Positions 7,905 through 27,019 of a stretch of DNA of 64,000 bases are shown here, one piece after another; within the stretch, counting starts at the first letter, position 1, and every line of letters starts with the position of its first letter. The position numbers were made by a program, and so were the translations under genes. The notes beneath the pieces are model-generated. The model was not told the origin of the DNA, ran no database searches, and was given only the letters and a program-made list of their open reading frames with translations. The stretch is from Pedobacter westerhofensis (GTDB taxonomy: Bacteria > Bacteroidota > Bacteroidia > Sphingobacteriales > Sphingobacteriaceae): assembly GCF_900182595.1 (NCBI RefSeq), contig NZ_FXTN01000002.1, positions 1 through 64,000 on the forward strand, read 5' to 3'.

Positions 7905-7932
7905 ATTATCAAATCATCAAAAAGATCATATC

Positions 7933-8523: not shown

Positions 8524-8550
8524 GTCCATCTACATAATTTTGGTAACATG

Positions 8551-8583
8551 CGCTGGCGGGATATATTCCTGCCGGCGTTTTTT
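8551..8583 (+). terminator. Rho-independent terminator after the DUF308 gene
   Basis: CGCTGGCGGG (8551-8560) pairs with CCTGCCGGCG (8568-8577), 10 bp with two G-U pairs and a 7-base loop, followed by six T. It ends the DUF308 transcript just before the convergent Nudix gene. Confidence 0.85.
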
Positions 8584-8586
8584 GTT

Positions 8587-9378
8587 TTAGCTTAATACTA
8601 ATCCTTCTTTCAGTGCCAATGTATACTTTTCCCTATCAAAGCTATATAAATGTGGTGAGCGGTGTGCGCCGATACTTCGCTTTTCCGTCAGTTTGTTTAA
8701 CAGGCCCAGAGCGATCAGCTTTTTAGGGAAATTACTTACATCCAGTTTTTTGCCCAGCAGGGTTTCATATAGCGCATGGATTTCACTTAATGTGAATTTC
8801 TCTGGTAGCATATTAAGACCAATCGGATAATGGTACAGATGCAGGCGCATGGTATGCAGCGCTTCCTTTACCATTTCGCTGTGATCAAACTCTAAGGGGG
8901 GCAGGCTGCCAATGTCAAACCAGGCGCATTCCGCGATGCTGATATCGGTTTGAAGTACGGTTTCTGAAAAGTCAGTAACTGCATAAAAGCCTACGGAAAT
9001 GGTATGATCCATGAGCCAGTTGCCTTCCCACGATGTCAGCCCGGTAATTTCAAACCACTTCTCTTTGTCAAACTTATTGAATTGAATGCGGTTGGGATCA
9101 CCAAATGTTTTAAACTGCTGCAAAAAGAGATTGTCAAGCCCCGTGTGCATTCTCACATTACGGGACGCAGCCTCCACCAGGGTTTCGCTGCGTTTAATAT
9201 GTCCTCCGGGCAAGCTCCAGCTGCTCATGTTTCTGTGCCTGATCAGCATTAATTTCAGCGTCTGCTCATGATAGCCAAAGATTGCACAGTCTATTGATAC
9301 ATTTGGAATATAATGCAGATGACCGTTAAGTATAAAATCTTTAAATTCTTCTTCCGTTTGCATATTCAAAAGTACCAT
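8587..9378 (-). CDS. Nudix-fold transcriptional regulator (NrtR-like), catalytically degenerate
   Basis: A protein of 263 residues: a Nudix domain (about 25-165) and a C-terminal winged helix (about 180-255). The Nudix box at residues 58-81 begins GGHIKRSETLVEAASRNVR and lacks the REXXEE glutamates needed for hydrolysis; this loss is typical of NrtR/AraR-type regulators that use the fold to sense a nucleotide or sugar metabolite. A perfect 8-1-8 palindrome (9402-9418) lies directly upstream and probably is its operator; the divergent acyltransferase gene shares that region. The ligand cannot be told. An alternative start is Met6 (9363). Confidence 0.85.
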   Translation of the reverse strand: MVLLNMQTEEEFKDFILNGHLHYIPNVSIDCAIFGYHEQTLKLMLIRHRNMSSWSLPGGHIKRSETLVEAASRNVRMHTGLDNLFLQQFKTFGDPNRIQFNKFDKEKWFEITGLTSWEGNWLMDHTISVGFYAVTDFSETVLQTDISIAECAWFDIGSLPPLEFDHSEMVKEALHTMRLHLYHYPIGLNMLPEKFTLSEIHALYETLLGKKLDVSNFPKKLIALGLLNKLTEKRSIGAHRSPHLYSFDREKYTLALKEGLVLS

Positions 9379-9401
9379 TTCAGATGTGGCAAAAAGACTA
9401 A

Positions 9402-9418
9402 TTAGTAAAATTTACTAA
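9402..9418. promoter_or_regulatory. Palindromic operator between the Nudix regulator and acyltransferase genes
   Basis: TTAGTAAA-A-TTTACTAA, perfect 8-bp arms around a single base, 24 bp upstream of the Nudix regulator start. On the plus strand it sits just upstream of TATCTTCG (9433-9440), a near match to the Bacteroidota -7 element, so binding would cover the -33 region of the acyltransferase promoter and suggests repression and autoregulation. The same TTAGT-N7-ACTAA pattern recurs at 6947-6963. Confidence 0.6.
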
Positions 9419-9452
9419 ATATAGGGATTTTGTATCTTCGCCACAGAGTGGA

Positions 9453-9497
9453 ACTAATGGTTGAAAGGCAGATTGAGACTAATCGTTGAAAGGTTGA
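9453..9497. repeat. Imperfect direct repeat in the acyltransferase leader
   Basis: ACTAATGGTTGAAAGGCAGA and ACTAATCGTTGAAAGGTTGA are two 20-base units spaced 25 bases apart (16 or more identities) in the 5' leader. The first contains an ATG opening a 10-codon frame (MVERQIETNR) that ends in the second unit. It could be a leader peptide or a chance duplication. Confidence 0.4.
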
Positions 9498-9593
9498 TCC
9501 GTATTGTTGGTGGCGTACTGGATTTATTCTGTTTCTTTGCTACAGGCTCAGAAGCATGTTTTTAATGCAGGATGAGCAAGGAGAACTAACCAG

Positions 9594-10685
9594 ATGAATA
9601 CCGTACAATCCGATCAGACCATTTTAAAAACCAGGCAACATTTTGAAATCCTTGATGGATTACGGGGCATTGCGGCCATTGCTGTAGTTATTTTCCATTT
9701 TATGGAATTTGCCGTTCCCGATTATAAGGACAATTTTATTGCACACAGTTACCTGGCGGTCGATTTCTTTTTCTGCCTTTCAGGTTTTGTAATTGCCTAC
9801 GCGTATGACAGCAGGGTAGAGCGCATGGGCGTGCTACGGTTTATTCAATCGCGGCTGATCCGTTTGCACGTGCTTGTAGTGATTGGTGCGGTAATCGGCC
9901 TGCTCGCTTTTATATTTGATCCTTTCAGCAATCTTTATGAGGGCTATGGATCAGGCAAAACGTTGCTCATGTTCCTTTCTGCTGGTTTGATGATCCCATA
10001 CCCACTGGTGCATGAGCGCTATTTTAACCTCTTTCATCTTAATCCGCCAACATGGTCACTTTTCTGGGAATATATTGCGAACATTTTTTATGTTTTTATA
10101 CTCTACAAAATAAAAAAACCATTATTATACGCACTGGTATTCATTGCGGCCCTGCTGCTTATTTATGAAGCCCATTTTGCAGGGAACCTGGCAGTAGGAT
10201 TTGGGGGTGAAAACTTTTTCGGTGGGGGCATCAGGATGTTTTATTCCTTTCTTGCAGGTATAGTGGTTTACCGCAACAGCTGGATGATCAAATCGTCTTT
10301 AAACTTTCTGGTGATGGGCATCTTACTGTTTGCTGTCTTTTTAATTCCCTTTCATGATAAAGCTAATGCGATAATAGATTCAGCAGTTGCTATCATTTAT
10401 TTTCCGTTTTTGGTTGCCCTGGGGGCAGGAGCAGGTCTGCATACTGTTTATAATAAGGTCTGTAAGTTCCTGGGGGATATTTCTTATCCCTTATATATGA
10501 TCCATTATCCTTTTCTTTGGATTTTCCTGAGTTATGTAGAAGCGAAAAAACCGCCGATGAATGAAATGGTGGTGATCATCAGTATATCAATATTTTTATT
10601 AATTGGGATGGCTTATTTGGTCATGATCTATATTGATGCGCCTATCCGTAAATATTTGAATGCGAAAATCAGAAAAAGTATTTAG
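9594..10685 (+). CDS. Membrane acyltransferase (OafA/YrhL, Acyl_transf_3 family)
   Basis: A protein of 363 residues with about ten membrane helices. The N-terminal motif HFEILDGLRGIAAIAVVIFHF carries the family's conserved Arg and His, and AVDFFFCLSGFVIAYAY and PTWSLFWEYIANI are typical of O-acyltransferases that move acetyl or other acyl groups onto surface sugars or similar acceptors. There is no fused SGNH domain. Transcription probably starts near 9446, giving a leader of about 150 nt with a direct repeat, under the Nudix-regulator palindrome. The acceptor is unknown. Confidence 0.9.
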   Translation: MNTVQSDQTILKTRQHFEILDGLRGIAAIAVVIFHFMEFAVPDYKDNFIAHSYLAVDFFFCLSGFVIAYAYDSRVERMGVLRFIQSRLIRLHVLVVIGAVIGLLAFIFDPFSNLYEGYGSGKTLLMFLSAGLMIPYPLVHERYFNLFHLNPPTWSLFWEYIANIFYVFILYKIKKPLLYALVFIAALLLIYEAHFAGNLAVGFGGENFFGGGIRMFYSFLAGIVVYRNSWMIKSSLNFLVMGILLFAVFLIPFHDKANAIIDSAVAIIYFPFLVALGAGAGLHTVYNKVCKFLGDISYPLYMIHYPFLWIFLSYVEAKKPPMNEMVVIISISIFLLIGMAYLVMIYIDAPIRKYLNAKIRKSI

Positions 10686-10817
10686 ATAAAAATTGTGTCG
10701 CTACCACCAGCCAGCTGTTCCAGATCAATATTTACATTTTTGACAATATTAGCTTACTTTTTATAGAAAAATTGGATAACCCGCCCACTTGTTTTATATT
10801 TAATTAAAGCTATAAAA

Positions 10818-11552
10818 ATGCCAAACTTAATACAAGTATCAATTCCGCCCTTAACTGAGGCCAGCTACCTGCGGAACATTCCAAGCCTCAGCAAAGGAAT
10901 GCAACTTAAACTCACTAACAATGTGACGTTTTTTGTGGGTGAAAATGGCTCAGGGAAATCTACACTGCTTGAAGGTATTGCCGAACGCTGCGGGTTTAGC
11001 CTGAGAGGCGGAAACAGAAACCACAATCTGAATACAGGCTATCGCTTTGACGGATATGAATCGCCACTGGCAGACCTGCTGGAATTATCCTGGTCGCCAC
11101 GGAAGATCAACGATGGTTTTTTTATGCGGGCAGAAAGCTTTTTCAATTTCGCTTCCTATATAGATGAGCTCGCAAAAGAGGATGCCCGGATTCTGCAGGC
11201 ATATGGCGGAAAATCACTGAATGAGCAATCGCATGGGGAGTCGTTCCTCGCTTTATTTAACAATCAGTTTGAATCGGGCATTTACATTCTTGACGAGCCT
11301 GAAGCAGCACTGTCGCCGGCAAGGGTATTAGCTTTTATGGCGGTTATCCATCAACTGGATATCACTGGCCGGGCGCAATTCCTGATCGCTACCCATTCCC
11401 CTTTGCTGATCTGCTATCCCGGAGCAACGATTTACCAGTTTGATGACGAGGGCGTGAGGGAAACCCATTATGAAGATACGGAACATTTTAGCCTGACCAA
11501 AGCCTTTTTGAACAATCCTAAACTGTACCTGCACCATCTGATGAATGGCTGA
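10818..11552 (+). CDS. AAA/ABC-type ATPase, stand-alone
   Basis: A protein of 244 residues. Walker A is GENGSGKST at residues 41-49, a signature-like SHGESFLALF follows, then Walker B in IYILDEPEAALSP, and a switch histidine in ATHSPLL. It is a soluble ABC-class ATPase of the kind annotated as AAA family ATPase or predicted ATPase; no partner permease is adjacent. It overlaps the convergent CPBP gene by 35 bp at the 3' ends. The function is not assignable from sequence. Confidence 0.85.
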   Translation: MPNLIQVSIPPLTEASYLRNIPSLSKGMQLKLTNNVTFFVGENGSGKSTLLEGIAERCGFSLRGGNRNHNLNTGYRFDGYESPLADLLELSWSPRKINDGFFMRAESFFNFASYIDELAKEDARILQAYGGKSLNEQSHGESFLALFNNQFESGIYILDEPEAALSPARVLAFMAVIHQLDITGRAQFLIATHSPLLICYPGATIYQFDDEGVRETHYEDTEHFSLTKAFLNNPKLYLHHLMNG

Positions 11553-12429
11553 TAAAACGGGAGCTCTGCTGACCCAGTTCCTTCCTCCTGGTCCAGAAGT
11601 AAATGGCACAGATCAGGGTTACAACAGCAAGCGCCGCCCCAAACTCGTCTATGAAATAACTGGTTTTGCTGCTGGTAACGATGGTGATGGGTGTAAAAAA
11701 GCTTTGTACAAATAAATTGTGGCTGGCATGCAGCATTACCGGGGCCCATAAGCTGCCGGATTTTAGCCTGAACCAGGTATAAATAAAACTTGCGCTAACT
11801 ACTGCTACGGTAAAACAGGTTAATCCATACCAGACTGGAGTGCCGCCATTATAATGCCCCCAGATAATCAAAGGGTAGTGCCACAAGGCCCATATGCCGC
11901 CACCAATCAGCGAGGTATACGTATAGCTTGTCACATTATTTAAATGCGGCACTAAAAATCCGCGCCAGCCTATCTCTTCGCCCAGGGCGGTAGACATGCT
12001 TCCAAACAAGCCAATTACGCCGTTGACGATAAAAAATAATACGATAAACACGCCCGGAGGAAGGTTGCTCCAGCCCAGTGATTTTGCCGCTTCAGCAACA
12101 AATTCCTTGTTGTAGAACCCTCCCCATCCGGCAAACCATATGATCAGATAAGCGATGAGTGCATAGCCCAAAGGAATAAGATAAGCCCAAAGCAAATATT
12201 TTGGCTTGCCCCATTTCCAGGCAAGATCACTGATCTTATATTTCATGATCCTGCAGGTGATCCAGGTGGCGAGGGCCGGGCACCACATAATGCCATATCC
12301 ATAAATTCTGCCGCCGATGCGGCCTTCGCCGGAGTGAAGGGTTAATATCCAGACGATAGCGCTCAGGGCTAAAGTCAGCACCAGAAATATTCCGATCGCT
12401 TTTTTACTCTGTGATGTAGAAATGTCCAT
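11518..12429 (-). CDS. CPBP-family intramembrane glutamic endopeptidase (Abi/CAAX protease-like)
   Basis: A protein of 303 residues from the chosen ATG at 12429 (a longer frame starts at 12459). It is multi-pass with the CPBP motif 1 EEIGWRGF (Glu151, Glu152, Arg156) and motif 2 in WALWHYPLIIWGH (His at about 187); these form the membrane-embedded active site of Rce1-like proteases. Bacterial members are linked to bacteriocin immunity, abortive infection or prenyl-protein processing; none is evident here. It converges with the ATPase gene, overlapping by 35 bp. Confidence 0.85.
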   Translation of the reverse strand: MDISTSQSKKAIGIFLVLTLALSAIVWILTLHSGEGRIGGRIYGYGIMWCPALATWITCRIMKYKISDLAWKWGKPKYLLWAYLIPLGYALIAYLIIWFAGWGGFYNKEFVAEAAKSLGWSNLPPGVFIVLFFIVNGVIGLFGSMSTALGEEIGWRGFLVPHLNNVTSYTYTSLIGGGIWALWHYPLIIWGHYNGGTPVWYGLTCFTVAVVSASFIYTWFRLKSGSLWAPVMLHASHNLFVQSFFTPITIVTSSKTSYFIDEFGAALAVVTLICAIYFWTRRKELGQQSSRFISHSSDGAGTV

Positions 12430-12519
12430 TTGCGTGATATAAAACTGCCGGCCTCTCATTTAAACATATAGCATCGTACAGCAGCGGATTTCAAAGGTAA
12501 AACTAAAATAAAAATCTGC

Positions 12520-12565
12520 TTTTCACTTAAGTGAAAAATTTGCAGCAGATATCGGGTGAAATTTG
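12520..12565 (+). promoter_or_regulatory. ACTTAAGT-type activator site and -7 element, site b
   Basis: TTTTCACTTAAGTGAAAAA (core 12525-12532, centre 12528.5), near-perfect palindrome, then GAAATTTG at 12558-12565. Centre-to-element distance is 29.5 bp. The predicted start near 12570 gives a 33-nt leader to the peroxiredoxin ATG. Confidence 0.75.
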
Positions 12566-12602
12566 AAGCATCAAATAAATATACAAAGCAAAAAAGAAAG
12601 TT

Positions 12603-13154
12603 ATGAAAATTAAATCAAAAAAATCCGCATTAGCTGCACTGGCAATGGTCCTTTGCACTGTAACCTTTAGCGCCTCTAAAGTAGCCGCACAGGAAACTTT
12701 AAAAAAAGGCGATAAAGCGCCAAACTTTACCCTGAAAGATCAGGATGGAAATGATTTCCAGTTGGCTGACCATATCGGGAAACAAAAAGTAGTTATCTTT
12801 TTCTACCCTAAGGATGAAAGTGCAGTTTGCACCAAAGAAGCCTGTGCTTTCCGGGATGCTTATGCGAAATACAATGATGCCAATGCACTTGTTGTGGGCA
12901 TTAACGGTGGTACAGTAGAAAGCCACAAAGCTTTTCAAAGCAAGGAACACCTGCCATTCCAGTTGTTAAGCGATCCTGGTAACCAGGTGCTTGGAATGTT
13001 TGGCGTTAAAGAACAGGCTTTTGGTGAGATGAAACTTACCGGCCGCGAAACCTTCGTGATTGGCAAAGACGGAAAAATTGTTTACAGTTTCCGCGACTTC
13101 ATGAAAGGCGATGAACATTCTAAACAGGTACTGACTTACCTGAACAGCAAATAG
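12603..13154 (+). CDS. Exported peroxiredoxin of the PrxQ/Bcp type
   Basis: A protein of 183 residues: a signal peptide (about 1-30, ending SKVAAQ) and a redoxin domain (33-183). The peroxidatic Cys76 in ESAVCTKEACAF and the resolving Cys81 form the C-X4-C arrangement of PrxQ/Bcp peroxiredoxins. It reduces hydroperoxides in the envelope and needs a thiol donor. The DsbD-type reductase and thioredoxin encoded directly downstream are good candidates. It has its own ACTTAAGT site and terminator, so it is a separate member of the regulon. Confidence 0.92.
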   Translation: MKIKSKKSALAALAMVLCTVTFSASKVAAQETLKKGDKAPNFTLKDQDGNDFQLADHIGKQKVVIFFYPKDESAVCTKEACAFRDAYAKYNDANALVVGINGGTVESHKAFQSKEHLPFQLLSDPGNQVLGMFGVKEQAFGEMKLTGRETFVIGKDGKIVYSFRDFMKGDEHSKQVLTYLNSK

Positions 13155-13176
13155 TCTTAAAATAGGTGATGATTGG

Positions 13177-13207
13177 GCCGTGTACAGTATTGTACCGGCT
13201 TTTTTTA
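13177..13207 (+). terminator. Rho-independent terminator after the peroxiredoxin gene
   Basis: GCCG-TGTAC (13177-13185) pairs with GTAC-CGGC (13192-13199), one bulged T, followed by seven T. It separates the peroxiredoxin transcript from the next ACTTAAGT promoter. Confidence 0.75.
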
Positions 13208-13230
13208 TTTACTGTCATTTTTCTTCCCGG

Positions 13231-13275
13231 TTTAACCTTAGTGAAAATTTGCCGGTTGGATACTCAGCAGATTTG
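13231..13275 (+). promoter_or_regulatory. ACTTAAGT-type activator site and -7 element, site c
   Basis: TTTAACCTTAGTGAAAAT (core ACCTTAGT 13235-13242, centre 13238.5; two changes from the palindrome core) and CAGATTTG at 13268-13275. Centre-to-element distance is again 29.5 bp. The predicted start near 13280 gives an 89-nt leader to the DsbD-type gene. Confidence 0.7.
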
Positions 13276-13368
13276 TATCAGCGGAAAGGTTCATCACTGC
13301 TAAACCAGGCGGGGAGCGCTCTTGAGAACTGCTAAAGAAAACAACGAACGAAAAAGACAATTACTCAG

Positions 13369-15348
13369 ATGAGAAAATTAATTTTAATGCTTTTTTGCCT
13401 GCTGAGCATGCAGGCATTTGCAAAGATCGATACACCGGTACACTGGAAGTTCAAATCTGCCAGTACAGGTAAGGATCAATATGCGGTAACTTTTACTGCT
13501 ACGATTGACAAGGGATGGCATATGTACTCGCAGTTTCTGAAAAGCGGCGGACCGGTGCCAACATCTTTTAAATTTGATAACCTACCTTCTGCTTCGCTGC
13601 TGGGCAAGGTAACAGAAAAGCCTGCAGCCTTAAAGGGTTACGACCAATCCTTTGGGATGACCATTGAATACCATGAGAATGAGGTAACTTTCACGCAGAT
13701 TGTCCGCAGTACGGATGAGAAAGCCCACCTTACAGGCACCTTAACCTATATGGTTTGCAGTGGCCAGAAATGTTTACCGCCCAGCGATATCAACTTTGAT
13801 ATTCCTGTATCGGGGGCTTTGATTGCAGACGGAAACCAGGCCACACGACCTGAAAAGCAAAAGGTTACAGCACCAGCTCAGGCGCCTGTACAGTCTATGG
13901 CTGATGCGGATCATTCGCTGCTGGGCATATTTATTGCCGGCTTTCTCGGTGGGCTCGCAGCATTCTTTCTGCCCTGTATCTACCCGATGGTGCCGCTCAC
14001 GGTATCATTTTTTACAAAAAGATCAGGGACACGTGGACAGGGGATCAGAGCTGCGGTCATCTATGGATTGTCTATCATCACGATTTATGTGGGGCTCGGC
14101 CTCCTGATCACCGGTATTTTTGGAGCCTCGGCACTGAATGAGGCAGCAAGCAGCGCCTCTTTTAACCTGCTGTTTTTTGCGATTCTGCTGGTTTTTGCCT
14201 TTTCATTTATGGGCGCGTTCGAAATTACGCTGCCATCTTTTTTTGTGAACAAGATCGATCAGAAGTCGGAAAGTGGCGGCTGGATAGGGCTGTTCTTTAT
14301 GGCTTTCACACTTGCGCTGGTTTCATTCTCCTGTACCGGCCCGCTGATCGGCACATTGCTGGTAGAGGCTGTAAGCAAGGGCACATATCTCGGCCCTGCC
14401 CTGGGGATGTTTGGTTTCTCGCTGGCATTATCCCTGCCTTTTACTGCTTTCGCAATCTTCCCATCATGGCTCAAAGCCCTGCCTAAATCGGGCGGCTGGC
14501 TGAACTCGGTAAAAGTTTCGCTGGGCCTGCTGGAACTGGCGCTGGCTTTCAAATACCTCACTAATGTTGATCTGGCTTACCACTGGGGATTGCTGAGCCG
14601 CGACCTCTTCCTGGGGATCTGGATCATTATCTTCGGCACGCTTGCCTTCTACCTTCTTGGCAAAATCAGGTTAAACCATGATACGGAGGTAACTTCATTG
14701 CCCTTGCCACGACTGGTCCTGGCGATGGCGACAATGGTATTTATCGTCTATCTGATTCCCGGACTTTTCGGCGCGCCCCTCAAAGCAATCAGCGGCTGGT
14801 TGCCGCCACAGAGCACGCAGCAGTTTACGCTGACAGGCAACGGCCCGGCAGCAGATGCACCGCCCTCAACAGGTCATAAGTATGCCGGCCTGTTCCATGC
14901 TCCGGATAACATTGATGCATTTTATGATTATGAAGAGGGCTTGGCCTATGCAAAAAAAGTGAATAAACCTGTTTTACTGGATTTTACAGGCTGGAGCTGT
15001 ACCAACTGCCGGAAAATGGAAGCCTCGGTATGGTCTGACCCGCAGGTGCTGAAAAGGCTTAAAAACGACTATGTGCTGATCTCCCTGTATGTGGATGACA
15101 GAACGGGGCTTAGCGAATCGGAAAAATACACCTCCAAAGTTTCCTCAAAATACATCAAGACACTCGGACAAAAATGGAGCGACCTGCAGGAAGCACAGTT
15201 CAATACCAATGCGCAGCCATTTTATGTAGTACTGGAGCCTAACGGGAAACCGGCTGCGGAACCAAGGGCGTTTGACCTGGATATAGATGCTTATACCAGC
15301 TTCCTCGATAAGGGCATTATGGCTGCCAAAAAATCTGTCTCATTGTAA
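13369..15348 (+). CDS. DsbD-type thiol:disulfide reductase with C-terminal thioredoxin domain
   Basis: A protein of 659 residues. It has a signal peptide (1-18), an N-terminal DsbD-alpha-like domain (about 20-145) with a cysteine pair in MVCSGQKCLPP, an eight-helix electron-conducting membrane domain (about 180-470) with the redox cysteines in FFLPCIYPMVP and SCTGPLIGTLL, and a thioredoxin-like domain (about 510-655) with WSCTNCRK (Cys544, Cys547). The full DsbD path is present: electrons move from cytoplasmic thioredoxin through the membrane to envelope proteins. It is followed 17 bp later by a secreted thioredoxin, so the two form an operon behind site c. Confidence 0.93.
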   Translation: MRKLILMLFCLLSMQAFAKIDTPVHWKFKSASTGKDQYAVTFTATIDKGWHMYSQFLKSGGPVPTSFKFDNLPSASLLGKVTEKPAALKGYDQSFGMTIEYHENEVTFTQIVRSTDEKAHLTGTLTYMVCSGQKCLPPSDINFDIPVSGALIADGNQATRPEKQKVTAPAQAPVQSMADADHSLLGIFIAGFLGGLAAFFLPCIYPMVPLTVSFFTKRSGTRGQGIRAAVIYGLSIITIYVGLGLLITGIFGASALNEAASSASFNLLFFAILLVFAFSFMGAFEITLPSFFVNKIDQKSESGGWIGLFFMAFTLALVSFSCTGPLIGTLLVEAVSKGTYLGPALGMFGFSLALSLPFTAFAIFPSWLKALPKSGGWLNSVKVSLGLLELALAFKYLTNVDLAYHWGLLSRDLFLGIWIIIFGTLAFYLLGKIRLNHDTEVTSLPLPRLVLAMATMVFIVYLIPGLFGAPLKAISGWLPPQSTQQFTLTGNGPAADAPPSTGHKYAGLFHAPDNIDAFYDYEEGLAYAKKVNKPVLLDFTGWSCTNCRKMEASVWSDPQVLKRLKNDYVLISLYVDDRTGLSESEKYTSKVSSKYIKTLGQKWSDLQEAQFNTNAQPFYVVLEPNGKPAAEPRAFDLDIDAYTSFLDKGIMAAKKSVSL

Positions 15349-15365
15349 CATTTAATTTAATATAT

Positions 15366-15836
15366 ATGAAAAATCAATTTTTTAAATACAGCCTGCTGTT
15401 GTTCTGCACCATGCTGATTACCGGAATCTCTTCATTTAAAGCCAATGCACAGCAAAGCGCTGCAGGGCAGGAAATCAGGTTTAGCACAAAGACTTATAAA
15501 GAGGTTTTAGCTGCCGCCAAAGCCAGTCATAAAATGGTATTTGTTGATGCCTATGCCACATGGTGCTCGCCCTGTAAGGAACTGCATAAAACTACTTTCA
15601 GGGATCCCAGGACTGTGGCTTACTTCAACAGGCATTTTATCAATTACACGGTTGACGTAGAAAAAGGCGAGGGGATTAACCTGGCCATGACCTGGCAGAT
15701 CGAAGGATTGCCAACCCTCCTGATCGTAAATGAAAATGGTAAAGTGGTAGCCAATCACACAGGCTATGTGAATGGTAGCGGACTCATGCAGTTTGCACTG
15801 GAAGCTACAGAAAGCAGCAAGCCAAAAGCCAAATAG
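15366..15836 (+). CDS. Exported thioredoxin-like protein
   Basis: A protein of 156 residues: a signal peptide (about 1-29, ending FKANAQ) and a thioredoxin fold with the redox motif WCSPC (Cys67, Cys70) and a cis-Pro-like EGLPTLLIV. It is probably reduced by the DsbD-type protein encoded 17 bp upstream and passes electrons to envelope peroxiredoxins or other substrates. It is the second gene of that operon. No terminator is seen directly after it; the site-d promoter starts 15 bp downstream. Confidence 0.9.
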   Translation: MKNQFFKYSLLLFCTMLITGISSFKANAQQSAAGQEIRFSTKTYKEVLAAAKASHKMVFVDAYATWCSPCKELHKTTFRDPRTVAYFNRHFINYTVDVEKGEGINLAMTWQIEGLPTLLIVNENGKVVANHTGYVNGSGLMQFALEATESSKPKAK

Positions 15837-15853
15837 CAAATTTTTCCTTTGGG

Positions 15854-15899
15854 TTTTAACTTAAGTTAAAATCCAAAGGAAAAATAAGGCTAAAATTTG
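15854..15899 (+). promoter_or_regulatory. ACTTAAGT-type activator site and -7 element, site d (drives an RNA, not a protein gene)
   Basis: TTTTAACTTAAGTTAAAAT (core 15859-15866, centre 15862.5), perfect palindrome, and AAAATTTG at 15892-15899. Centre-to-element distance is 29.5 bp. The predicted start is near 15904. No recognisable protein gene follows on this strand; the next structure is a run of hairpins ending in a terminator at 16065. Confidence 0.75.
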
Positions 15900-15903
15900 C
15901 TTC

Positions 15904-16065
15904 CATAAACCTGCAGAGAAAAACGTATTAATGAAATCCCGGACTCTCGTCTGGGAATGCTCCTTTAATGTGGTAGGATAAAAGGAGCGCATCACGCTGT
16001 TGGCGTTGTGGTAGGCGCAGCACGTGATGCATTGGCCAGGGACTGAATTGTTCCTGGCCTTTTTT
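15904..16065 (+). ncRNA. Predicted structured small RNA of the thiol-stress regulon
   Basis: About 162 nt between a site-d promoter and an intrinsic terminator. After a 33-nt unpaired 5' stretch come four consecutive hairpins with almost no bases between them. TCCCGGAC/GTCTGGGA (15937-15944/15949-15956, one G-U, 4-base loop). GCTCCTTT/AAAGGAGC (15959-15966/15981-15988, perfect). GCATCACG/CGTGATGC (15989-15996/16023-16030, perfect, plus inner CTG/CAG). GGCCAGG/CCTGGCC (16034-16040/16053-16059) then six T. The only small frame is a 16-codon one from 15931 (MKSRTLVWECSFNVVG), without a clear ribosome site. By analogy with Fnr- or CRP-activated small RNAs it may repress mRNAs. Targets are unknown. 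Confidence 0.7.
16034..16065 (+). terminator. Rho-independent terminator of the small RNA
   Basis: GGCCAGGGA (16034-16042) pairs with TTCCTGGCC (16051-16059), 9 bp with one G-U, followed by TTTTTT (16060-16065). The T tract is on the plus strand only, so it serves a plus-strand transcript. Confidence 0.85.
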
Positions 16066-16076
16066 ACATCTGGCCA

Positions 16077-17663
16077 CTAATGCGCGCCCGCTTCGGCCAG
16101 CGAAATCTTACGGGCCGATTTCCTTACAAAGATCAGGACAAAGGGTATGCAGATCAGGAAAAGCGTTCCTATCCACAGAAAGACATCCATATAAGAAAGC
16201 AGAGTAGATTGCTTTTGAACAGTAACTTCGAGGAGGTTATAAGCTGCGTGTCTGGCTCCTGCCAAATCATAACCCTGCGACTGGAACCGGGCAGTAAGCA
16301 GGTTTACCCTTTGCTGTACAGCCGGGTCATTTGCAGGCAGGTGACTAATCAGGGCAATACGATGCTGCTGCGACTGCCGTGAAACAAAGGTTGTAATGAG
16401 TGCTACGCCAAATGCGCCGCCAAGTTGCCGCAGCATCCCGGTAAGGGCCGCTCCCTGGCCAATCTCTTTTCCCTCTAAAGTGGATAGAGACATCGCGGTA
16501 ACTGGTACGAAAAGAAATCCGAGACCAAGAGCGCGGACAAATAATACCAGATACAGATTGCTGCTCCCGGTTTCAAGGGTAAGTAAATGATATGACCAGT
16601 AGCCGTAAACAAAAAATACAGCCATTCCAAGCGCAATCAGGTATTTGGACTGCGCACCGCGCTGGATCAGTTGCGATACAAGGGCAATCATCACTGCTGT
16701 AAATAAGGTTCCGGGCAGCAACAGCAAGCCCGACTGTAATGCAGTCCAGCCAAGCAGTCCCTGTGTATACAGGGGCAGCACAAAGGTAGTACCGAAGAGG
16801 CCGAACCCGATCAGGAAGGTGAGGATCGAGCCTATACGAAGATTGGTGTCACGGAGCACGCGCAGTTCCACAACAGGATATTGGTACACGAGTTCCCGCC
16901 AGATAAACAGCAGGATCCCCAATATCGCAATAACCGTAAGCAGGATGATCAGTTTACTGCTAAACCAGTCGTCTTCCTGGCCTTTCTCCAGCACGTATTG
17001 CAGGGAGGCCACACCGGCAGTGAGCAGGCCTATTCCCAGCCAGTCTACCTGGCTGGCCGGTCGTTTCTTTTCGTACCGGGGGCTTTTTACATATCGGATA
17101 GCCAGCACTGCTGCCAATAAACCGATGGGCACGTTGATATAGAAGATCAGGGGCCAGGAATAATTGTCGATCAGATAGCCGCCAAGCGTTGGGCCTATAC
17201 TTGGGCCAACTAACAGGCCTAAGGTATAAATCCCCTGGGCAATTGCCCTTTTCTCTGCGGGCCAGCTTTCGGCAATAATGGTTTGCGAGGTCACCAGCAA
17301 AGCGCCGCCACCCAGGCCCTGTATAAAGCGAAAGATCACCAGCTCCCAGATGCCCGTGGCGTGTCCGCATAAAAAAGAACAGATGGTGAAAATTAAAACC
17401 GAGGCCGCAAAATAATTCCGCCGCCCGAATTGCTGGGATAACCAGCTGGTCATTGGTACGATGATCACGTTGGCGAGGGAATAGGCGGTGATCACCCAGC
17501 CGATCTCGTTGACGGTTGCGCCAAGATTACCGCGCAGGTCGTTCAATGCCACATTGACGATCGTGGTGTCAATCAGTTCCAGCATTGCACAGACCACAGC
17601 GGTGATCGTAATGATGATCCGGCGCGATCCGTATTCTACAAGTGAATTAGCAGTTGTTTCCAT
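16077..17663 (-). CDS. DHA2-family drug:H+ antiporter (EmrB/QacA type)
   Basis: A protein of 528 residues with about 14 membrane helices. Typical DHA2 motifs are seen: LIDTTIVNVAL in helix 1, WVITAYSLANVIIVPMTSWL, the A-motif-like QFGRRNYFAAS, RFIQGLGGGALLVTSQ, and motif C GLLVGPSIGPTLGGYL. It exports amphiphilic or toxic compounds. It is the last gene of the OsmC-TrxB-MFS series, but a strong minus-strand terminator lies between trxB and this start, so it may be made mainly by read-through. No EmrA or TolC partner is adjacent. Confidence 0.92.
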   Translation of the reverse strand: METTANSLVEYGSRRIIITITAVVCAMLELIDTTIVNVALNDLRGNLGATVNEIGWVITAYSLANVIIVPMTSWLSQQFGRRNYFAASVLIFTICSFLCGHATGIWELVIFRFIQGLGGGALLVTSQTIIAESWPAEKRAIAQGIYTLGLLVGPSIGPTLGGYLIDNYSWPLIFYINVPIGLLAAVLAIRYVKSPRYEKKRPASQVDWLGIGLLTAGVASLQYVLEKGQEDDWFSSKLIILLTVIAILGILLFIWRELVYQYPVVELRVLRDTNLRIGSILTFLIGFGLFGTTFVLPLYTQGLLGWTALQSGLLLLPGTLFTAVMIALVSQLIQRGAQSKYLIALGMAVFFVYGYWSYHLLTLETGSSNLYLVLFVRALGLGFLFVPVTAMSLSTLEGKEIGQGAALTGMLRQLGGAFGVALITTFVSRQSQQHRIALISHLPANDPAVQQRVNLLTARFQSQGYDLAGARHAAYNLLEVTVQKQSTLLSYMDVFLWIGTLFLICIPFVLIFVRKSARKISLAEAGAH

Positions 17664-17671
17664 TTACGATT

Positions 17672-17709
17672 AAAAAAAATGCGAAGGCATGCCTTTTGGG
17701 CAGCCTTCG
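17672..17709 (-). terminator. Minus-strand terminator between trxB and the MFS gene
   Basis: On the minus strand CGAAGGC (709-703) pairs with GCCTTCG (688-682) around a 14-base loop, followed after CAT by eight T (679-672). It ends 9 bp before the MFS start codon. Its position inside an otherwise co-directional series suggests partial termination or attenuation. Confidence 0.75.
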
Positions 17710-17771
17710 GGTGGTGTAATGAATAGAAGAAATAGTTGCGGCAGCCTGAATTATCCGGCAATCCGGGGTTT

Positions 17772-18725
17772 TCAGACCAGCTCTGCTTCCCGGGCAGCCA
17801 GAAAGCGTTCTGCATCAAGTGCAGCCATACAGCCTGTTCCCGCCGCCGTAATCGCCTGGCGGTAGATATGGTCCTGCGCGTCACCGCAGCAAAACACGCC
17901 CGGAATAGCGGTAGATGTTCTGCCGGGCAGGGTCTTGATATACCCGGTTTCATCCATATCAAGCAGGCCCCTGAAAATATCAGTATTGGGCTGATGGCCA
18001 ATAGCAACGAACAGGCCCGAAACCGGGATATCCATTTCCTGCCGGGTGATACTATTCAAAACCCTGACGGCTGTGACATTCTTATCATTGCCAATGACCT
18101 CCGTGATTTCCGAATGATAGCGAACCTCGATATTTGGGGTGTTAAGGACGCGGTCGATCATAGACCTAGAAGCGCGGAATTCACCACGGCGGACAAACAT
18201 ATGAACCTTGCTCACGAGTTTGGAAAGATATGTTGCCTCTTCTGCAGCGGTGTCGCCACCTCCAACCAGTGCCACTTCCTGGCCCCTGAAAAAATACCCA
18301 TCGCATACTGCGCAGCCTGATACGCCAAAGCCATTGTACCTGGCCTCGGATTCAAGCCCCAGCCATTTGGCGGAAGCACCGGTTGAAATGATCACGGTGT
18401 CGGCCACCACGGTTTTGGTCTCGTCGATCGTTACCTGAAAGGGATAACTGCTGAAGTCTACCCCACTCACATAGCCAAACCTGATTTCGGTGCCAAAGCG
18501 CATTGCCTGTTTCTGGAGGTCTTCCATCATCTCCGGACCAAGGATTCCGTTTGGATATCCCGGAAAGTTTTCTACTTCAGTAGTTTGGGTGAGCTGTCCC
18601 CCAGGGTTCATGCCTGTATATATGACGGGTTGAAGACCGGAACGGGCAGCATATATTGCGGCTGTATAGCCGGCAGGTCCCGATCCAATGATCAGGCACC
18701 TGATGTGTTCTGTTTCTGTTTGCAT
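17772..18725 (-). CDS. trxB: Thioredoxin-disulfide reductase
   Basis: A protein of 317 residues, the normal size. FAD-binding GSGPAGYTAAIYAARSG at about 14-30, NADPH-binding GGGDTAAEEA in the central domain, the redox pair Cys138/Cys141 in CAVCDGYFF, and the C-terminal FAD motif FCCGDAQDHIYRQAITAAGTG. It uses NADPH to reduce cytoplasmic thioredoxin, the electron source for DsbD-type proteins and peroxiredoxins. It lies 53 bp downstream of the OsmC gene and is presumably cotranscribed from site e. Confidence 0.95.
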   Translation of the reverse strand: MQTETEHIRCLIIGSGPAGYTAAIYAARSGLQPVIYTGMNPGGQLTQTTEVENFPGYPNGILGPEMMEDLQKQAMRFGTEIRFGYVSGVDFSSYPFQVTIDETKTVVADTVIISTGASAKWLGLESEARYNGFGVSGCAVCDGYFFRGQEVALVGGGDTAAEEATYLSKLVSKVHMFVRRGEFRASRSMIDRVLNTPNIEVRYHSEITEVIGNDKNVTAVRVLNSITRQEMDIPVSGLFVAIGHQPNTDIFRGLLDMDETGYIKTLPGRTSTAIPGVFCCGDAQDHIYRQAITAAGTGCMAALDAERFLAAREAELV

Positions 18726-18778
18726 AATAAAATTGAATTGACCGGGCAGCAGCTATACACGCACTGCCCGGGATATAT

Positions 18779-19204
18779 TTATTCCTGATAACTTACAGTA
18801 AGTTCTATCTGTACAGCAGACAATGCTTTGGAGATCAGGCAATTGTTTTTGGCCATCAGGGCGACTTCTCCGAACCGCTCTGCTGACAGATCTTCGATCG
18901 CTGTTGCAGAAAGCTCAAGGTTAACCTTAGTGATACTACCTGTAGACATATCCAGTGTTACAGTAGCTGTTGTATTCAGCTCTGCCGGAGCGAAGTTCTG
19001 TTGCGTTAAGGCATGGGAAAGGGCCATGGTGAAACAACCGGCGTGGGCCGCTGCAAGCAATTCTTCCGGATTGGTGCCTATTCCATCTGCGAAACGGGTG
19101 TTGAATGAATATTGTACATGATCTAGTACCTGGCTTTGAGTGGATATGGTGCCTTGCCCCATTTTGATATCGCCTTGCCAGAAGGCTTTTGCTGTTCTTT
19201 GCAT
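18779..19204 (-). CDS. OsmC-type organic hydroperoxide reductase
   Basis: A protein of 141 residues from the ATG at 19204. A longer frame to 19258 would run through the promoter and operator, so I rejected it. Family marks: [24 protein letters not shown] with Cys57 and NNCLISKAL with Cys122. These are the two reactive cysteines of OsmC (positions close to 59 and 125 in E. coli). The C-P of CPxSK is replaced by C-L. The protein reduces organic hydroperoxides in the cytoplasm. It is the first gene of the OsmC-trxB(-MFS) operon behind site e. Confidence 0.9.
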
Positions 19205-19223
19205 GATTTTACAATTTGTGATG

Positions 19224-19267
19224 TAAAAGTCCGGCAAATACCAGGATTCTTTTTTCACTTAAGTTAA
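19224..19267 (-). promoter_or_regulatory. ACTTAAGT-type activator site and -7 element, site e
   Basis: On the minus strand TTTAACTTAAGTGAAAAAA (core 19264-19257, centre 19260.5) is followed by GACTTTTA at 19231-19224. Centre-to-element distance is 29.5 bp; the element keeps A at position 2 and TTT at 5-7 but has A instead of the final G. The predicted start near 19219 leaves a 15-nt leader to the OsmC ATG, which supports that start codon. Confidence 0.7.
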
Positions 19268-19294
19268 ACCAGGCATAATATTTAGTCCATTCTA

Positions 19295-20059
19295 TTATAG
19301 ATTCATTCCCCCGGAGGCCTCAATACGCTGTGCTGTGATCCAGCTGGCATCTGCTGTGCACAGGAAAGTAACTACGCCGCCGATGTCACTCGCCTCTCCG
19401 ATACGTCCCAAGGCAGTTGCTGCCAAAGTATTGGCCCTGAAAAGGGGATTGTCCCTCACCAGTCCGCCGCCAAAGTCGGTGGCGATAGGGCCGGGCGCTA
19501 CGGTATTAACTCTGATTCTCCTTGGGGAAAGCTCCTTGGCCTGGTACCGGGTAAGTGTTTCCACTGCGCCTTTCATCGCCGCATAGGCAGAAAATCCGGC
19601 AACGCTGGCTTGGGCAAGCCGGCTGGACATATTGACGATCGCCCCGCCATCGTGTATAAAAGCAAGGCTCTGCTGGGTGAAAAAGTAAAGTCCTTTAAAA
19701 TGCACGTTCAACAGGTAATCAAACTGTTCTTCTGTAGTTTCTTCGTAAGTTGCATGCAGCCCAACACCTGCATTATTGATCAGGTAGTCGAAACGGCCGG
19801 CACCAAACTCTTTCTGCAGGAGCACCTCAAGCTCCTTAAAAAAAACAGTAAACTTTTTGATCTGCACGATATCAAATTGTAGTGCAACAGCATGAACGCC
19901 TGCCTGTTTCAATTCTTCTACCACCTGTAGTGCAGCTTCTTTGTTTGTCTGATACGTAAAAATGATGTTTACACCCTTTGCCGCGAGTTTTAGCGCAATG
20001 TTTGCTCCCAATCCGCGGCTTCCGCCAGTGATCAAAGCGATTTTCTTTGTTTCTGTCAT
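19295..20059 (-). CDS. Short-chain dehydrogenase/reductase
   Basis: A protein of 254 residues from the ATG at 20059; the frame to 20104 adds an unconserved leader. It is a classical SDR: cofactor motif TGGSRGLG (11-18), NNAG (95-98), catalytic Ser about 145, Tyr159 and Lys163 in SAYAAMKG. It reduces or oxidises a small carbonyl or alcohol with NAD(P). It is a paralogue of the SDR at 33491-34255, of the same length, and like it is accompanied by an AraC-type gene. The AraC gene lies 65 bp upstream on the same strand. No ACTTAAGT site precedes this pair. Confidence 0.9.
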   Translation of the reverse strand: MTETKKIALITGGSRGLGANIALKLAAKGVNIIFTYQTNKEAALQVVEELKQAGVHAVALQFDIVQIKKFTVFFKELEVLLQKEFGAGRFDYLINNAGVGLHATYEETTEEQFDYLLNVHFKGLYFFTQQSLAFIHDGGAIVNMSSRLAQASVAGFSAYAAMKGAVETLTRYQAKELSPRRIRVNTVAPGPIATDFGGGLVRDNPLFRANTLAATALGRIGEASDIGGVVTFLCTADASWITAQRIEASGGMNL

Positions 20060-20123
20060 GTTGTATTTTGTTTGAATTACAGATACAAATTTAGACAGCA
20101 GCACGCTGGGGACCTTTAGCCGA

Positions 20124-20978
20124 TTAATGGCTTTGATTGGACAATTGATGGTTTATATTTCTGAAATCCATAGCAGTTATGCCGGTATGTTTTTTAAAGA
20201 AGCGTGAGAAATAGGCATGGTCTTCATAGCCTAAATCATATGCGATTTGTTTTACATTCCGCGAGGTATAATACAGCATCCTTTTGGCTTCCAGTAGTAT
20301 TTCCTGGTTGATCCAGTAACTGGCCGGAAAGCCGGTGATTTCTTTTACTGCTTCGTTCAGATACAGGGGTGTGATATGTACCAGTGACGCATAAGCCTTA
20401 ACCTGCTTCAGTTCTTTGAATTTTTCGCGAACAAGGCTTTTAAAGTGGATAACGAGGCTGTGCTTATGACCGCCGGAATACCTGACATTGGGCTGGTTTT
20501 GTAAAATCTGTGACGCGATCATACCTGATAGTGTCGCGATAAGTGTTTCCGTAAGGGGCTTTAGAAGGGGCAATGATTCCTGTTTCAGCATCTGATCAAG
20601 GACAGTTACGATCCTGAATACCGGATCGCTTTGGATGGTTGCGCAGTTTTGAAACGCGTTGAGGTACACATCGAAGATTTCGCGGTACTGGCCTGGGATC
20701 AGCCGGCTATCCGCAAAAACCAGCCAGCCTTCTGAGTGTTCAAAGTTGATATACCGGTGTACCTGGCCGGGGGCGATGTAACATAAGGAAGGCCCATCCA
20801 AAATCATTTCCTTATAATCTACTTCCCAGGTAAATGAACCGCCTTCCTGTATCAAAAACATATAATGGTCATCCCTGTGGGGTAGGGGACCGGTATAACC
20901 CGCTTCGCTGACCGGCAGTACATCAACACCGCTGGCATCCAGCTCATCCTGATGTAAACTAATTTTGTCACTTTTCAT
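20124..20978 (-). CDS. AraC-family transcriptional regulator
   Basis: A protein of 284 residues from the ATG at 20978; the frame to 21008 is a longer alternative. N-terminal cupin-like domain (about 15-150, with GGSFTWEVDYKEM and PGQVHRYI) and a C-terminal double HTH (about 185-280) ending in ARMLYYTSRNVKQIAYDLGY, followed by the typical F-R-F-KK and G-T segment. It lies directly upstream of an SDR gene on the same strand and probably regulates it. The inducer is unknown. Confidence 0.9.
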   Translation of the reverse strand: MKSDKISLHQDELDASGVDVLPVSEAGYTGPLPHRDDHYMFLIQEGGSFTWEVDYKEMILDGPSLCYIAPGQVHRYINFEHSEGWLVFADSRLIPGQYREIFDVYLNAFQNCATIQSDPVFRIVTVLDQMLKQESLPLLKPLTETLIATLSGMIASQILQNQPNVRYSGGHKHSLVIHFKSLVREKFKELKQVKAYASLVHITPLYLNEAVKEITGFPASYWINQEILLEAKRMLYYTSRNVKQIAYDLGYEDHAYFSRFFKKHTGITAMDFRNINHQLSNQSH

Positions 20979-21100
20979 CTGATCTCTTCTGCTGAAGGTA
21001 TACTGCAAAAGTAATCACAGCTTTGCTCAGTTGCAGAAAATAATTTGTGGGCAATAAAAAACATTTTCTGTAATGATTTTTTAGGAAAAAAAACCCAGGG

Positions 21101-21146
21101 TTTTCACTTAAGTTAAAAAAGCAAAGTGTTGTGTTGCCGTAATTTA
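21101..21146 (+). promoter_or_regulatory. ACTTAAGT-type activator site, site f, in front of a dead gene
   Basis: TTTTCACTTAAGTTAAAAA (core 21106-21113, centre 21109.5) with GTAATTTA at 21139-21146, 29.5 bp from the centre. TTT is kept but the A at position 2 and the final G are lost, the weakest -7 element of the eight, in line with decay of the gene it served. Testing the opposite direction gives no TTT at the corresponding place. Confidence 0.6.
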
Positions 21147-21157
21147 CGTGCAAATAA

Positions 21158-21315
21158 TTGAAGATTAGGAAACATTATGATGCCATAGTGATCGGCTCGG
21201 GACAGGCCGGATTACCTATCCTACCTATTCAGAGTCGCTGAATAATCTGTTTATGAAGCTGGGAAACGAATCGAAAGATTTTACCAGGTTATTTATCCGC
21301 CATTGCGGCGGGTAA
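21158..21315 (+). pseudogene. Remnant of an FAD-dependent pyridine nucleotide-disulfide oxidoreductase
   Basis: From a TTG at 21158 the plus strand reads KHYDAIVIGSGQAG, the N-terminal FAD-binding Rossmann motif of mercuric-reductase-like flavoproteins. Within a few codons a frame change leads into PTYSESLNNLFMKLGNE, the end of the dimerisation domain, and a stop at 21313. About 14 N-terminal and 35 C-terminal codons of a protein of some 450 residues remain, so a large internal deletion joined the two ends near 21212-21220. The promoter palindrome is still in place. The family assignment is from the two motifs only. Confidence 0.8.
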
Positions 21316-21319
21316 TAAT

Positions 21320-21895
21320 CTATATTCTGCAGTTAATCGATCCTGTTTGCAGGAGTTCATTGTGCAGGAATTTCCGGATGTCATCTACGGGCAGGTGGTC
21401 GCCCAGGTACTGATTATAATAGGGGTACACAATGATACCTGCTTCGTCAATCAGGAAGTCGGCCCCTAATAGATTGAGATGCCCTTCAGGCTCAAATTTT
21501 TCCTTAAACAGCTTGTGTCCTTCCTTCGCTTTTGCATAGGCACCTTTGTACATCGAAAACAAGATCTTCAGGGTATTGAGCTCGATATCATATAAAGTAT
21601 AAAGGTCAAATCCGGGATTGGGGATGATATGTGCGTAAAACGATTCATTGGCGCTGTAGCGCTTTAAGTTTTCTATTGAGCTTTCATATACCGCAAGAAC
21701 AACCAGGCCCATCTCCCTGAAATATCCGTCCATCTGCTGCAGTTGCAGGAAACGAAGATTGGTAAAGGGGCAGGCTACATGCCTGTAAAATGTAAGGAGT
21801 ACTTTTCTGCCTCTGAAAGAGCTGAGTTTTACCGGGTTCCCTGACAGGTCTGTAATGTGAAAATCAGGAGCCGGTTGGTTGGCAAGTAACGACAT
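21320..21895 (-). CDS. Peroxiredoxin-like (AhpC/TSA-type) protein
   Basis: A protein of 191 residues with a redoxin fold: APDFHITDLSGNPVKLSSFRG at the N-terminus and the active-site region TFYRHVACPFTNLR, with a single N-terminal cysteine in the peroxidatic position. It lacks a close resolving cysteine, and the sequence around the active site belongs to a peroxiredoxin-like branch rather than classical AhpC. Cytoplasmic, no signal peptide. It ends 4 bp from the end of the convergent flavoprotein remnant. It is probably the downstream gene of the hydrolase transcript (52 bp gap, same strand), which would bring it under site g. Confidence 0.8.
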   Translation of the reverse strand: MSLLANQPAPDFHITDLSGNPVKLSSFRGRKVLLTFYRHVACPFTNLRFLQLQQMDGYFREMGLVVLAVYESSIENLKRYSANESFYAHIIPNPGFDLYTLYDIELNTLKILFSMYKGAYAKAKEGHKLFKEKFEPEGHLNLLGADFLIDEAGIIVYPYYNQYLGDHLPVDDIRKFLHNELLQTGSINCRI

Positions 21896-21946
21896 ATGAA
21901 GCGCATTATGCCGGCAGTTGTTAAACCACCGGCTGTTGTGAATTGA

Positions 21947-22795
21947 TTATTTTATGATTTGCAAAAGGATTGCGGTTACCTGATCAGGGACAGAAAGAAA
22001 AGGGCAATGACCTGAATCAAGGGTAAATACGTTTTTGATGCCATGTTCAGCTACAATTTTCTTTTGAAGTTCGTAGGGGGCAACCAAATCCTTTGTGGTA
22101 TGGATATAGTATTTTGGGAGCGCAGCCGCTGCCGGATTATTCTTTAATACGATCTTTTCCATTTGTGGGTGGAGAGGCTCCGGCCTGTTATTGGCAATCA
22201 GCAATTGTTTGACTTCCTCCGAGCCGTCCTGGCAGAAAATTGAAAATACTTTGTCGTTAGATATACTGCCGGTGAGGCCATCTGCGGATGGGGTTACATT
22301 GGGAAAAAGTTGTGAACTTGCGTCCATGCCCACGATATCATCTAAAGACTGTCCGTTTTTAGGAATTGCTGCGGCAATATATACCATCTTTTCGATGTGT
22401 TCGGGAATGGAATCCGCTACCCCTGTAATTACAGAACCACCTGCACTGTGGGCTACAAGTACAACTTTGCCGCTGATGCCTGTGATGGCAGAAATTACTT
22501 TGTTACGGTACGAATTAAGCGTAAGAGTTGCCACAGGGGTTTGGTCTGAACCATGTCCCGGAAGTTCCACAACCACCACCTTTTGTCCTGCGGCCTCGAG
22601 CTGGGCTTTTACGTATTTCCAGGCATATGCTCCCTGGAAAGCGCCATGCACAAGCACAAAGGTTTTAGTTTGTGGAGGAGCAGGGTTATGGTCGTCATCT
22701 TTATCACAGCCCGTCATCGACAGCAGAAAGGCAAATGCCAGTATAAATGCAGCCATTACAGGGACTGCAAATTTTCTTGTTTTGTTTGTATTCAT
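21947..22795 (-). CDS. Alpha/beta-hydrolase lipoprotein
   Basis: A protein of 282 residues. The signal peptide ends in a lipobox with Cys30 (LLSMTGC), so it is anchored in the envelope. The hydrolase fold shows the oxyanion region VLVHGAFQGAYAW, nucleophile Ser117 in LVAHSAGGS, an Asp in KDLVAPYE and a terminal His in LDSGHCPF. It resembles the salicylate/methyl-ester esterase-like AB hydrolases. The substrate is unknown. It has an ACTTAAGT site with a perfect -7 element (site g). Confidence 0.88.
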   Translation of the reverse strand: MNTNKTRKFAVPVMAAFILAFAFLLSMTGCDKDDDHNPAPPQTKTFVLVHGAFQGAYAWKYVKAQLEAAGQKVVVVELPGHGSDQTPVATLTLNSYRNKVISAITGISGKVVLVAHSAGGSVITGVADSIPEHIEKMVYIAAAIPKNGQSLDDIVGMDASSQLFPNVTPSADGLTGSISNDKVFSIFCQDGSEEVKQLLIANNRPEPLHPQMEKIVLKNNPAAAALPKYYIHTTKDLVAPYELQKKIVAEHGIKNVFTLDSGHCPFLSVPDQVTAILLQIIK

Positions 22796-22817
22796 GATAT
22801 TTCTTTTTTAACTGTTG

Positions 22818-22863
22818 CAAATATCAGGGTTCATCTGCTGCATGTTTTTCACCTAAGTTAAGA
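22818..22863 (-). promoter_or_regulatory. ACTTAAGT-type activator site and -7 element, site g
   Basis: On the minus strand TCTTAACTTAGGTGAAAAA (core ACTTAGGT 22858-22851, centre 22854.5) and GATATTTG at 22825-22818. Centre-to-element distance is 29.5 bp. The predicted start near 22813 gives an 18-nt leader to the hydrolase ATG. Confidence 0.72.
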
Positions 22864-22973
22864 CCGGGATTTTTTTCAGTACAGCAGCCGGATGTAATTA
22901 CGAATTTGTCATGACCGGGAATTAACCTGTTTGTTTCTGCTATGATCAGATCTTTTCTTAATTTCAGGGCATA

Positions 22974-23019
22974 AATTAACTTAAGTTAAAATGGCGTTGG
23001 ATTTAATTGTCCAAATTTG
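22974..23019 (+). promoter_or_regulatory. ACTTAAGT-type activator site and -7 element, site h (autoregulation)
   Basis: AATTAACTTAAGTTAAAAT (core 22979-22986, centre 22982.5), perfect palindrome core and inner flanks, then CAAATTTG at 23012-23019. Centre-to-element distance is 29.5 bp. The predicted start near 23024 gives a 53-nt leader to the Crp/Fnr gene at 23077, implying that the regulator activates its own synthesis. Confidence 0.75.
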
Positions 23020-23076
23020 GCGCGCTCGCCCGATGTTGTTCTCAAGAAGGCCGTTTTGAAAAATTAAGAATTGATC

Positions 23077-23745: not shown

Positions 23746-24009
23746 ATGATCAACAAAGAGGATGAACTGTTCAATGAACAGGGAAATGATGAAAACGAAA
23801 ATACGGATTTAAAAGGCTCCAACACGGTCAAAGATCCTGATGAATGGACTACCGGGGACGAACCCATGACCGGAGCGCAGCATTCTTATCTGAAAACACT
23901 GTCTGACGAGGCAAAGGAAGATTTTGATGAAACCCTCAGTAAATCTGAAGCATCAAAACGTATTGACGAGTTACAGCACAAAACTGGCAGAGGTTTAGAA
24001 AACAAATAA
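23746..24009 (+). CDS. Small acidic protein with DUF3072 motif
   Basis: A protein of 87 residues, very acidic at the N-terminus, then DEWTTGDEPMTGAQHSYLKT and a helix DEAKEDFDETLSKSEASKRIDELQ ending KTGRGL. This matches the DUF3072 pattern (TGDEPMTGAQ, then E/D-rich helix, then SKxxASxxID-LQ). It is soluble, with no signal peptide and no known function. It is followed by a strong hairpin terminator. Confidence 0.8.
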   Translation: MINKEDELFNEQGNDENENTDLKGSNTVKDPDEWTTGDEPMTGAQHSYLKTLSDEAKEDFDETLSKSEASKRIDELQHKTGRGLENK

Positions 24010-24015
24010 ACATAT

Positions 24016-24054: not shown

Positions 24055-24060
24055 ATGTGT

Positions 24061-26999: not shown

Positions 27000-27019
27000 T
27001 GGTTCTTCATTAAATTTAT

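Follow-up and report, generated by a model that had tools for sequence, protein, structure and literature searches.

FnrS and similar RNAs are Fnr-activated small RNAs of enterobacteria. In Bacteroides thetaiotaomicron, strain-specific sRNAs make up 27 of the 49 intergenic ones of high confidence (PMC7366714), and the same paper notes no obvious Hfq or ProQ homologue in Bacteroides. The −7 element of F. johnsoniae is described as T-12 A-11 T-8 T-7 T-6 G-5 in PMC6847099. In the 64,000-nucleotide stretch of Pedobacter westerhofensis DNA analysed here (the window), a structured small RNA had been predicted behind one operator, site d, of a redox regulon. Among the literature listings searched for Pedobacter sRNAs, the operator core together with Fnr, a Crp/Fnr redox regulon in Bacteroidetes, and sRNAs from broken genes, no earlier report of such an RNA was seen, the first two being judged by title.

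Site d is the sequence TTTTAACTTAAGTTAAAA at 15854-15871, with no strand assigned, and is one of the operators of the Crp/Fnr-type regulon of the window. The exact core TTNACTTAAGTNAA occurs nine times in the 6.35-Mb genome, site d included, and six of the nine sites fall within a 15-kb part, 7861-22989. With one mismatch allowed, the genome holds 34 sites compared to 40 for a reversed control pattern, which is no excess, and in the window alone, eight operator sites with at most two mismatches were found compared to 4.2 expected, a number that 6 of 100 shuffles reached. Weight was therefore placed only on the exact operator sites and their spacing. Among ten operators examined for spacing, the nine exact sites and the two-mismatch site 13232, eight have the TTTG of a −7 box exactly 34 bases past the operator centre, site d among them, while 19254 and 21103 fit this spacing more poorly. 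An operator with TTTG at 25-27 bases is present at 48 places in 28 of the 145 genomes of the genus, eight of these places being in the P. westerhofensis genome itself, compared to eight places in all, and none in this genome, for the control pattern.

At site d, the −7 box AAAATTTG (15892-15899, plus strand) carries its TTTG 34 bases after the operator centre and matches five of the six positions of the F. johnsoniae consensus, closer, as read by eye, than its counterpart in Pedobacter hartonius. Applying the F. johnsoniae positions, with the G at −5, gives a predicted start at 15904 and an operator centre at −41.5. The operator and −7 element named in the original prediction are thus present at site d with the spacing seen at most operators of the genome, which is what a regulated promoter of an activator-controlled sRNA would have, the binding of the protein itself being predicted. 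A centre at −41.5 is the position of an activator that touches the −35 region (class II).

The genes of redox type in the regulon include AhpC/TSA, DsbD, thioredoxin, and OsmC by Pfam, as well as genes that we take from their sequences to encode TrxB, MsrA, and MsrB. The likely regulator of the operators is the 197-aa protein encoded at 23071, which carries a cyclic-nucleotide-binding domain (PF00027, Pfam) and whose gene is preceded by an operator site with the same 34-base spacing; it would belong to the Crp/Fnr family and bind these operators. Two similar Crp/Fnr-like regulator genes, 7130-7729 and 23071-23664, each lie near an operator of the same type, with the Pfam check covering 23071-23664 only. 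The operator at 12522-12535 is flanked on either side by a −7 box at +34, faces the peroxiredoxin gene (12603, plus strand) and a 313-aa open-reading frame (12459, minus strand), and may serve two divergent promoters.

Site d is embedded in a 46-bp palindrome (15840-15885, no strand assigned) with 23-nt arms that are 96% complementary, and as RNA this palindrome would form a 21-pair hairpin directly after the trx stop codon (−25.3 kcal/mol, z −8.2). Palindrome arms of at least 15 nt were found in 4 of 46 distinct operator contexts. Where operators sit in palindromes with arms of 21-23 nt (15840-15885, L069:7672-7713 in P. hartonius, and L128 around 1501), the outer parts vary yet are complementary. 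In both P. westerhofensis and P. hartonius, the operator hairpin of site d follows the stop codon of the upstream operon, as if operator and 3′-end hairpin formed a single element.

The operator, the −7 box, four hairpins, and a run of six T follow one another in the interval from the trx stop (15836) to the point where a convergent minus-strand MFS gene ends (16077). The predicted transcript of ~160 nt would extend from 15904 to 16065 on the plus strand, with its start and end taken from spacing, consensus, and fold. Hairpin H1 (15937-15956) has 8 bp and a loop of 4 (z −5.0), H2 (15959-15988) has 8 + 2 bp and contains the presumed deletion junction discussed below (z −3.5), H3 (15989-16030) has an 8-bp base with 17 pairs in all and overlies the end-of-gene homology (z −2.8), and H4 (16034-16059) has 10 bp, all on the plus strand. 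The four strong tandem hairpins that had been proposed were found, with the correction that the last stem has 10 bp and not 9. H4 and the T6 at 16060-16065 make up the predicted intrinsic terminator (16034-16065, plus strand), in keeping with the earlier description and with the ending of an activator-controlled sRNA. Folding of 15904-16068 gave a minimum free energy of −70 kcal/mol compared to −44.3 (sd 3.7) for shuffled sequences (z −7.0, equalled by 0 of 200), and H1-H3 without the terminator hairpin still gave z −5.36 (0 of 300 shuffles), or −5.34 on repeat. Among 2664 stretches of 96 nt from both strands of the window, the one starting at 15937 on the plus strand ranked second by free energy and eighth by z. 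As a prediction from folding, the hairpin structure is real and far beyond chance. By both stability and significance, the top 96-nt fold of the same scan lies at 24001-24096 (z −8.6 on the plus strand), and a cobalamin riboswitch is found at 27014-27145 (RF00174, 70.1 bits).

Every plus-strand frame of 15904-16065 contains at least two stops, which upholds the claim that no intact protein gene stands behind site d. A 16-codon frame is present at 15931-15981; its ATG has A-rich surroundings and lies 27 nt past the predicted transcript start. The 9-mer TGTGGTAGG occurs twice, at 15969-15977 in H2 and at 16007-16015 in H3, and may be the mark of a deletion event or a motif.

The origin of this arrangement was approached through the related soil bacterium P. 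hartonius DSM 19033 (L069), whose trx orthologue is 75% identical; no genome nearer than this one with the same slot was found. In P. hartonius, the order is Prx, DsbD, Trx, MsrA, MsrB, operator, a 332-aa protein gene (L069:7785-8783, 999 nt), and terminator, with TrxB and OsmC on the other strand. In the window, the order is trx, operator, hairpins, terminator, and MFS gene, with trxB on the other strand, and msrA, msrB, and the 332-aa gene are missing from the slot. These three genes are found together in the P. westerhofensis genome on another contig, C4, at 443.7-445.9 kb, preceded by a lipase-like gene that has an operator. The 332-aa protein encoded there is intact and 71% identical to that of P. 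hartonius, and the 332-aa protein has no Pfam match. The terminator after the P. hartonius gene resembles the window terminator at 16034-16065, which is in turn 90% identical to the terminator of the C4 paralogue (E 3e-8, query 186-227). Site d therefore shares slot and terminator with a gene of which intact copies exist elsewhere, as a gene remnant would.

Alignment of the remaining sequence points the same way at its 3′ end. In alignment with the final codons and 3′ UTR of the P. hartonius gene, the 44 bases directly upstream of the terminator (15990-16033) score 31.5, compared to a null mean of −1.4 and maximum of 18, and none of 5000 shuffles reached this score. Against the C4 paralogue, the same bases score 25.5 (null maximum 19, 0 of 5000 shuffles), and since the P. 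hartonius and C4 gene ends score 25.0 against each other, the window sequence aligns with each of them as well as the two do with one another. Of all 127,912 positions scanned on the two strands of the window, 15990-16033 alone passed the joint threshold. The P. hartonius gene has two stops in tandem, the second of which is matched by the remnant stop at 16012-16014. At the 5′ end, similarity to the start of the gene gave P values of 0.009 and 0.018 with ATGAAA held fixed, a score matched at 12 of 127,922 window positions and exceeded by the unrelated trx start, and the 5′ UTR has no homology to that of P. hartonius (score −8 compared to a null mean of 1.3). The presumed remnant of the 332-aa gene would thus span 15931-16014 on the plus strand, with weak homology in the start region and strong homology from the last codons to the stop, and the 16-codon frame hints at beginning about where the start of the 332-aa gene would lie. 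At 84 nt compared to 999, the reading frame is destroyed, as is also characteristic of a gene remnant.

The cluster has lost a regulated gene by internal deletion before. Two short pieces of a 461-aa flavoprotein gene (L164:168-1553, mercuric-reductase-like) follow the operator at 21103, its start in 21169-21195 and its end in 21218-21260, so that within 21103-21260 the two ends are left and ~1.3 kb of the middle is missing. Matches to this second remnant outside the P. westerhofensis genome were found at 10 places among 60 genomes of the genus, nine to the end part and one to the start part, and Pfam returned nothing at the family cut-off for either piece. The fold of this remnant is not unusual (z −1.5), nor is that of the P. 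hartonius gene end without its terminator (z −1.0). Given the ordinary fold at 21103, such deletions do not simply produce hairpins like those of site d.

Searches for relatives of the hairpins gave little. BLAST with 15886-16068 (183 bases) against 145 genomes of the genus, own included, returned weak matches at E ≤ 0.1 in 40 of the 145, which outside the P. westerhofensis genome cover at most 77 of the 183 bases, the best being the P. hartonius terminator region. For 29 of the 43 matches in other genomes the surrounding DNA was read, and those examined closely are coding or terminator sequence. A covariance model (R1), for which two copies of the one window sequence served as input, had hits at E ≤ 1 in 4 of the 145, the P. 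westerhofensis genome among them; its matches in C4, P. hartonius, and genome G131 rest on the terminator, and that in genome G120 rests on the first hairpin. In a family sample, R1 matched 5 of 399 genomes at E ≤ 0.1, own included, with genome G295 as the new one. Leaving G295 aside, neither BLAST in the 145 genus genomes nor R1 in these and the 399 family genomes found a homologue of H1-H3 beyond terminator-type matches, a result that may miss distant homologues since R1 has a single sequence behind it and strict filters were applied in the large searches. Conservation with compensatory changes, as for an FnrS-like sRNA, was thus not found among these genomes, which offered no homologue in which covariation could be read. 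No second copy of H1-H3 exists in the P. westerhofensis genome. Rfam gave no match at gathering score at site d, and the best of its 26 sub-threshold matches were microRNA hairpin models on the operator palindrome. The original prediction had looked to the 5′ stretch and the loops for targets; the best duplexes of the 5′ stretch and two loops with the start regions of window genes were equalled by 9, 14, and 57 of 100 shuffles, which is no excess. With neither a homologue nor a target signal above shuffles among window genes, the claim of a selected regulatory RNA of the redox response is not supported, so that the original prediction is borne out in part.

Taken together, site d is probably an orphaned regulon promoter followed by an internally deleted remnant of the 332-aa gene and its retained terminator, a reading that sequence comparison supports through the slot, the operator spacing, the terminator match, the end-of-gene homology, and the intact paralogue. 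The ancestral operator would have driven the 332-aa protein gene, with the terminator at 16034-16065 closing the unit, an arrangement that persists in P. hartonius. A large internal deletion would then have removed the protein gene, leaving in the old slot the promoter, ~40 bases from the beginning of the gene and ~45 from its end, and the terminator. A copy of msrA-msrB-332aa stands on C4. The homology of the start region, continued use of the promoter, and idleness of the RNA would be further parts of this account: the remnant may be transcribed, the promoter probably still firing when the regulator is active and yielding a hairpin-rich RNA of ~160 nt that would have no selected trans-acting role. 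The 16-codon frame could instead define a short mRNA for a 16-residue peptide from 15931, and the A-rich context of its ATG at 27 nt from the predicted start would suit this; we consider it very unlikely, as an out-of-frame beginning of the lost gene explains the frame, and the 145 genus and 399 family genomes yielded no relative with it. Hairpins arising by chance or from a mobile repeat unrelated to the gene would agree with the lack of a clear alignment of the 5′ UTR and start region, but the end-of-gene homology and the shuffled folds argue against chance, and a repeat is opposed by the single genomic copy of H1-H3, the absence of a plasmid match, and a lone 31-base phage match at E 0.4, making this account hardly probable.

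Decay by itself leaves the hairpins unexplained, H1-H3 having z −5.3 without the terminator compared to −1.5 for the second remnant and −1.0 for the P. hartonius gene end, so an sRNA newly born from the remnant is conceivable. Such an RNA would have kept operator, promoter, and terminator, gained its hairpins under selection, and joined the redox regulon as a four-hairpin sRNA, acting in trans or by binding protein in the oxidative-stress response. The −7 box that is nearer to consensus by eye than that of P. hartonius and the recurrence of TGTGGTAGG in both H2 and H3 speak for it, and missing conservation is not decisive given the strain-specific sRNAs described for B. thetaiotaomicron (PMC7366714). 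Against it stand the lack of a homologue, and hence of covariation, and duplexes with window-gene starts that are not unusual compared to shuffles, and we regard this origin as possible but rather unlikely. Site d illustrates that a promoter, hairpins, and a terminator without a gene can mimic an sRNA gene, and that synteny with one relative can tell the two readings apart. A functional remnant RNA would offer a dated case of a bacterial sRNA derived from a protein gene and inheriting ready-made regulation.

Compared to known systems, site d is like FnrS in its short structured transcript, here predicted, its promoter site of Crp/Fnr-family type, and its intrinsic terminator, and unlike FnrS in that neither conservation nor a target was found, that it probably derives from a protein-gene slot, that the transcript is predicted only, and that it belongs to the phylum of Bacteroides, for which no obvious Hfq or ProQ homologue was noted (PMC7366714). 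It shares a −7 box of the TAnnTTTG type, an intrinsic terminator, and the lack of wide conservation with the strain-specific sRNAs of B. thetaiotaomicron (PMC7366714), and the same box type and an intrinsic terminator with Rfp18 of Flavobacterium psychrophilum (PMC9723704). Both the B. thetaiotaomicron sRNAs and Rfp18 were seen as transcripts (PMC7366714, PMC9723704), whereas the site d transcript is predicted, and Rfp18 is described as conserved in its genus (PMC9723704), unlike the site d hairpins. With internally deleted pseudogenes, site d has in common the conserved slot and terminator, the end-of-gene homology, the broken frame, and the intact copies elsewhere, and it differs from them in its unusually strong hairpins and an apparently intact regulated promoter.
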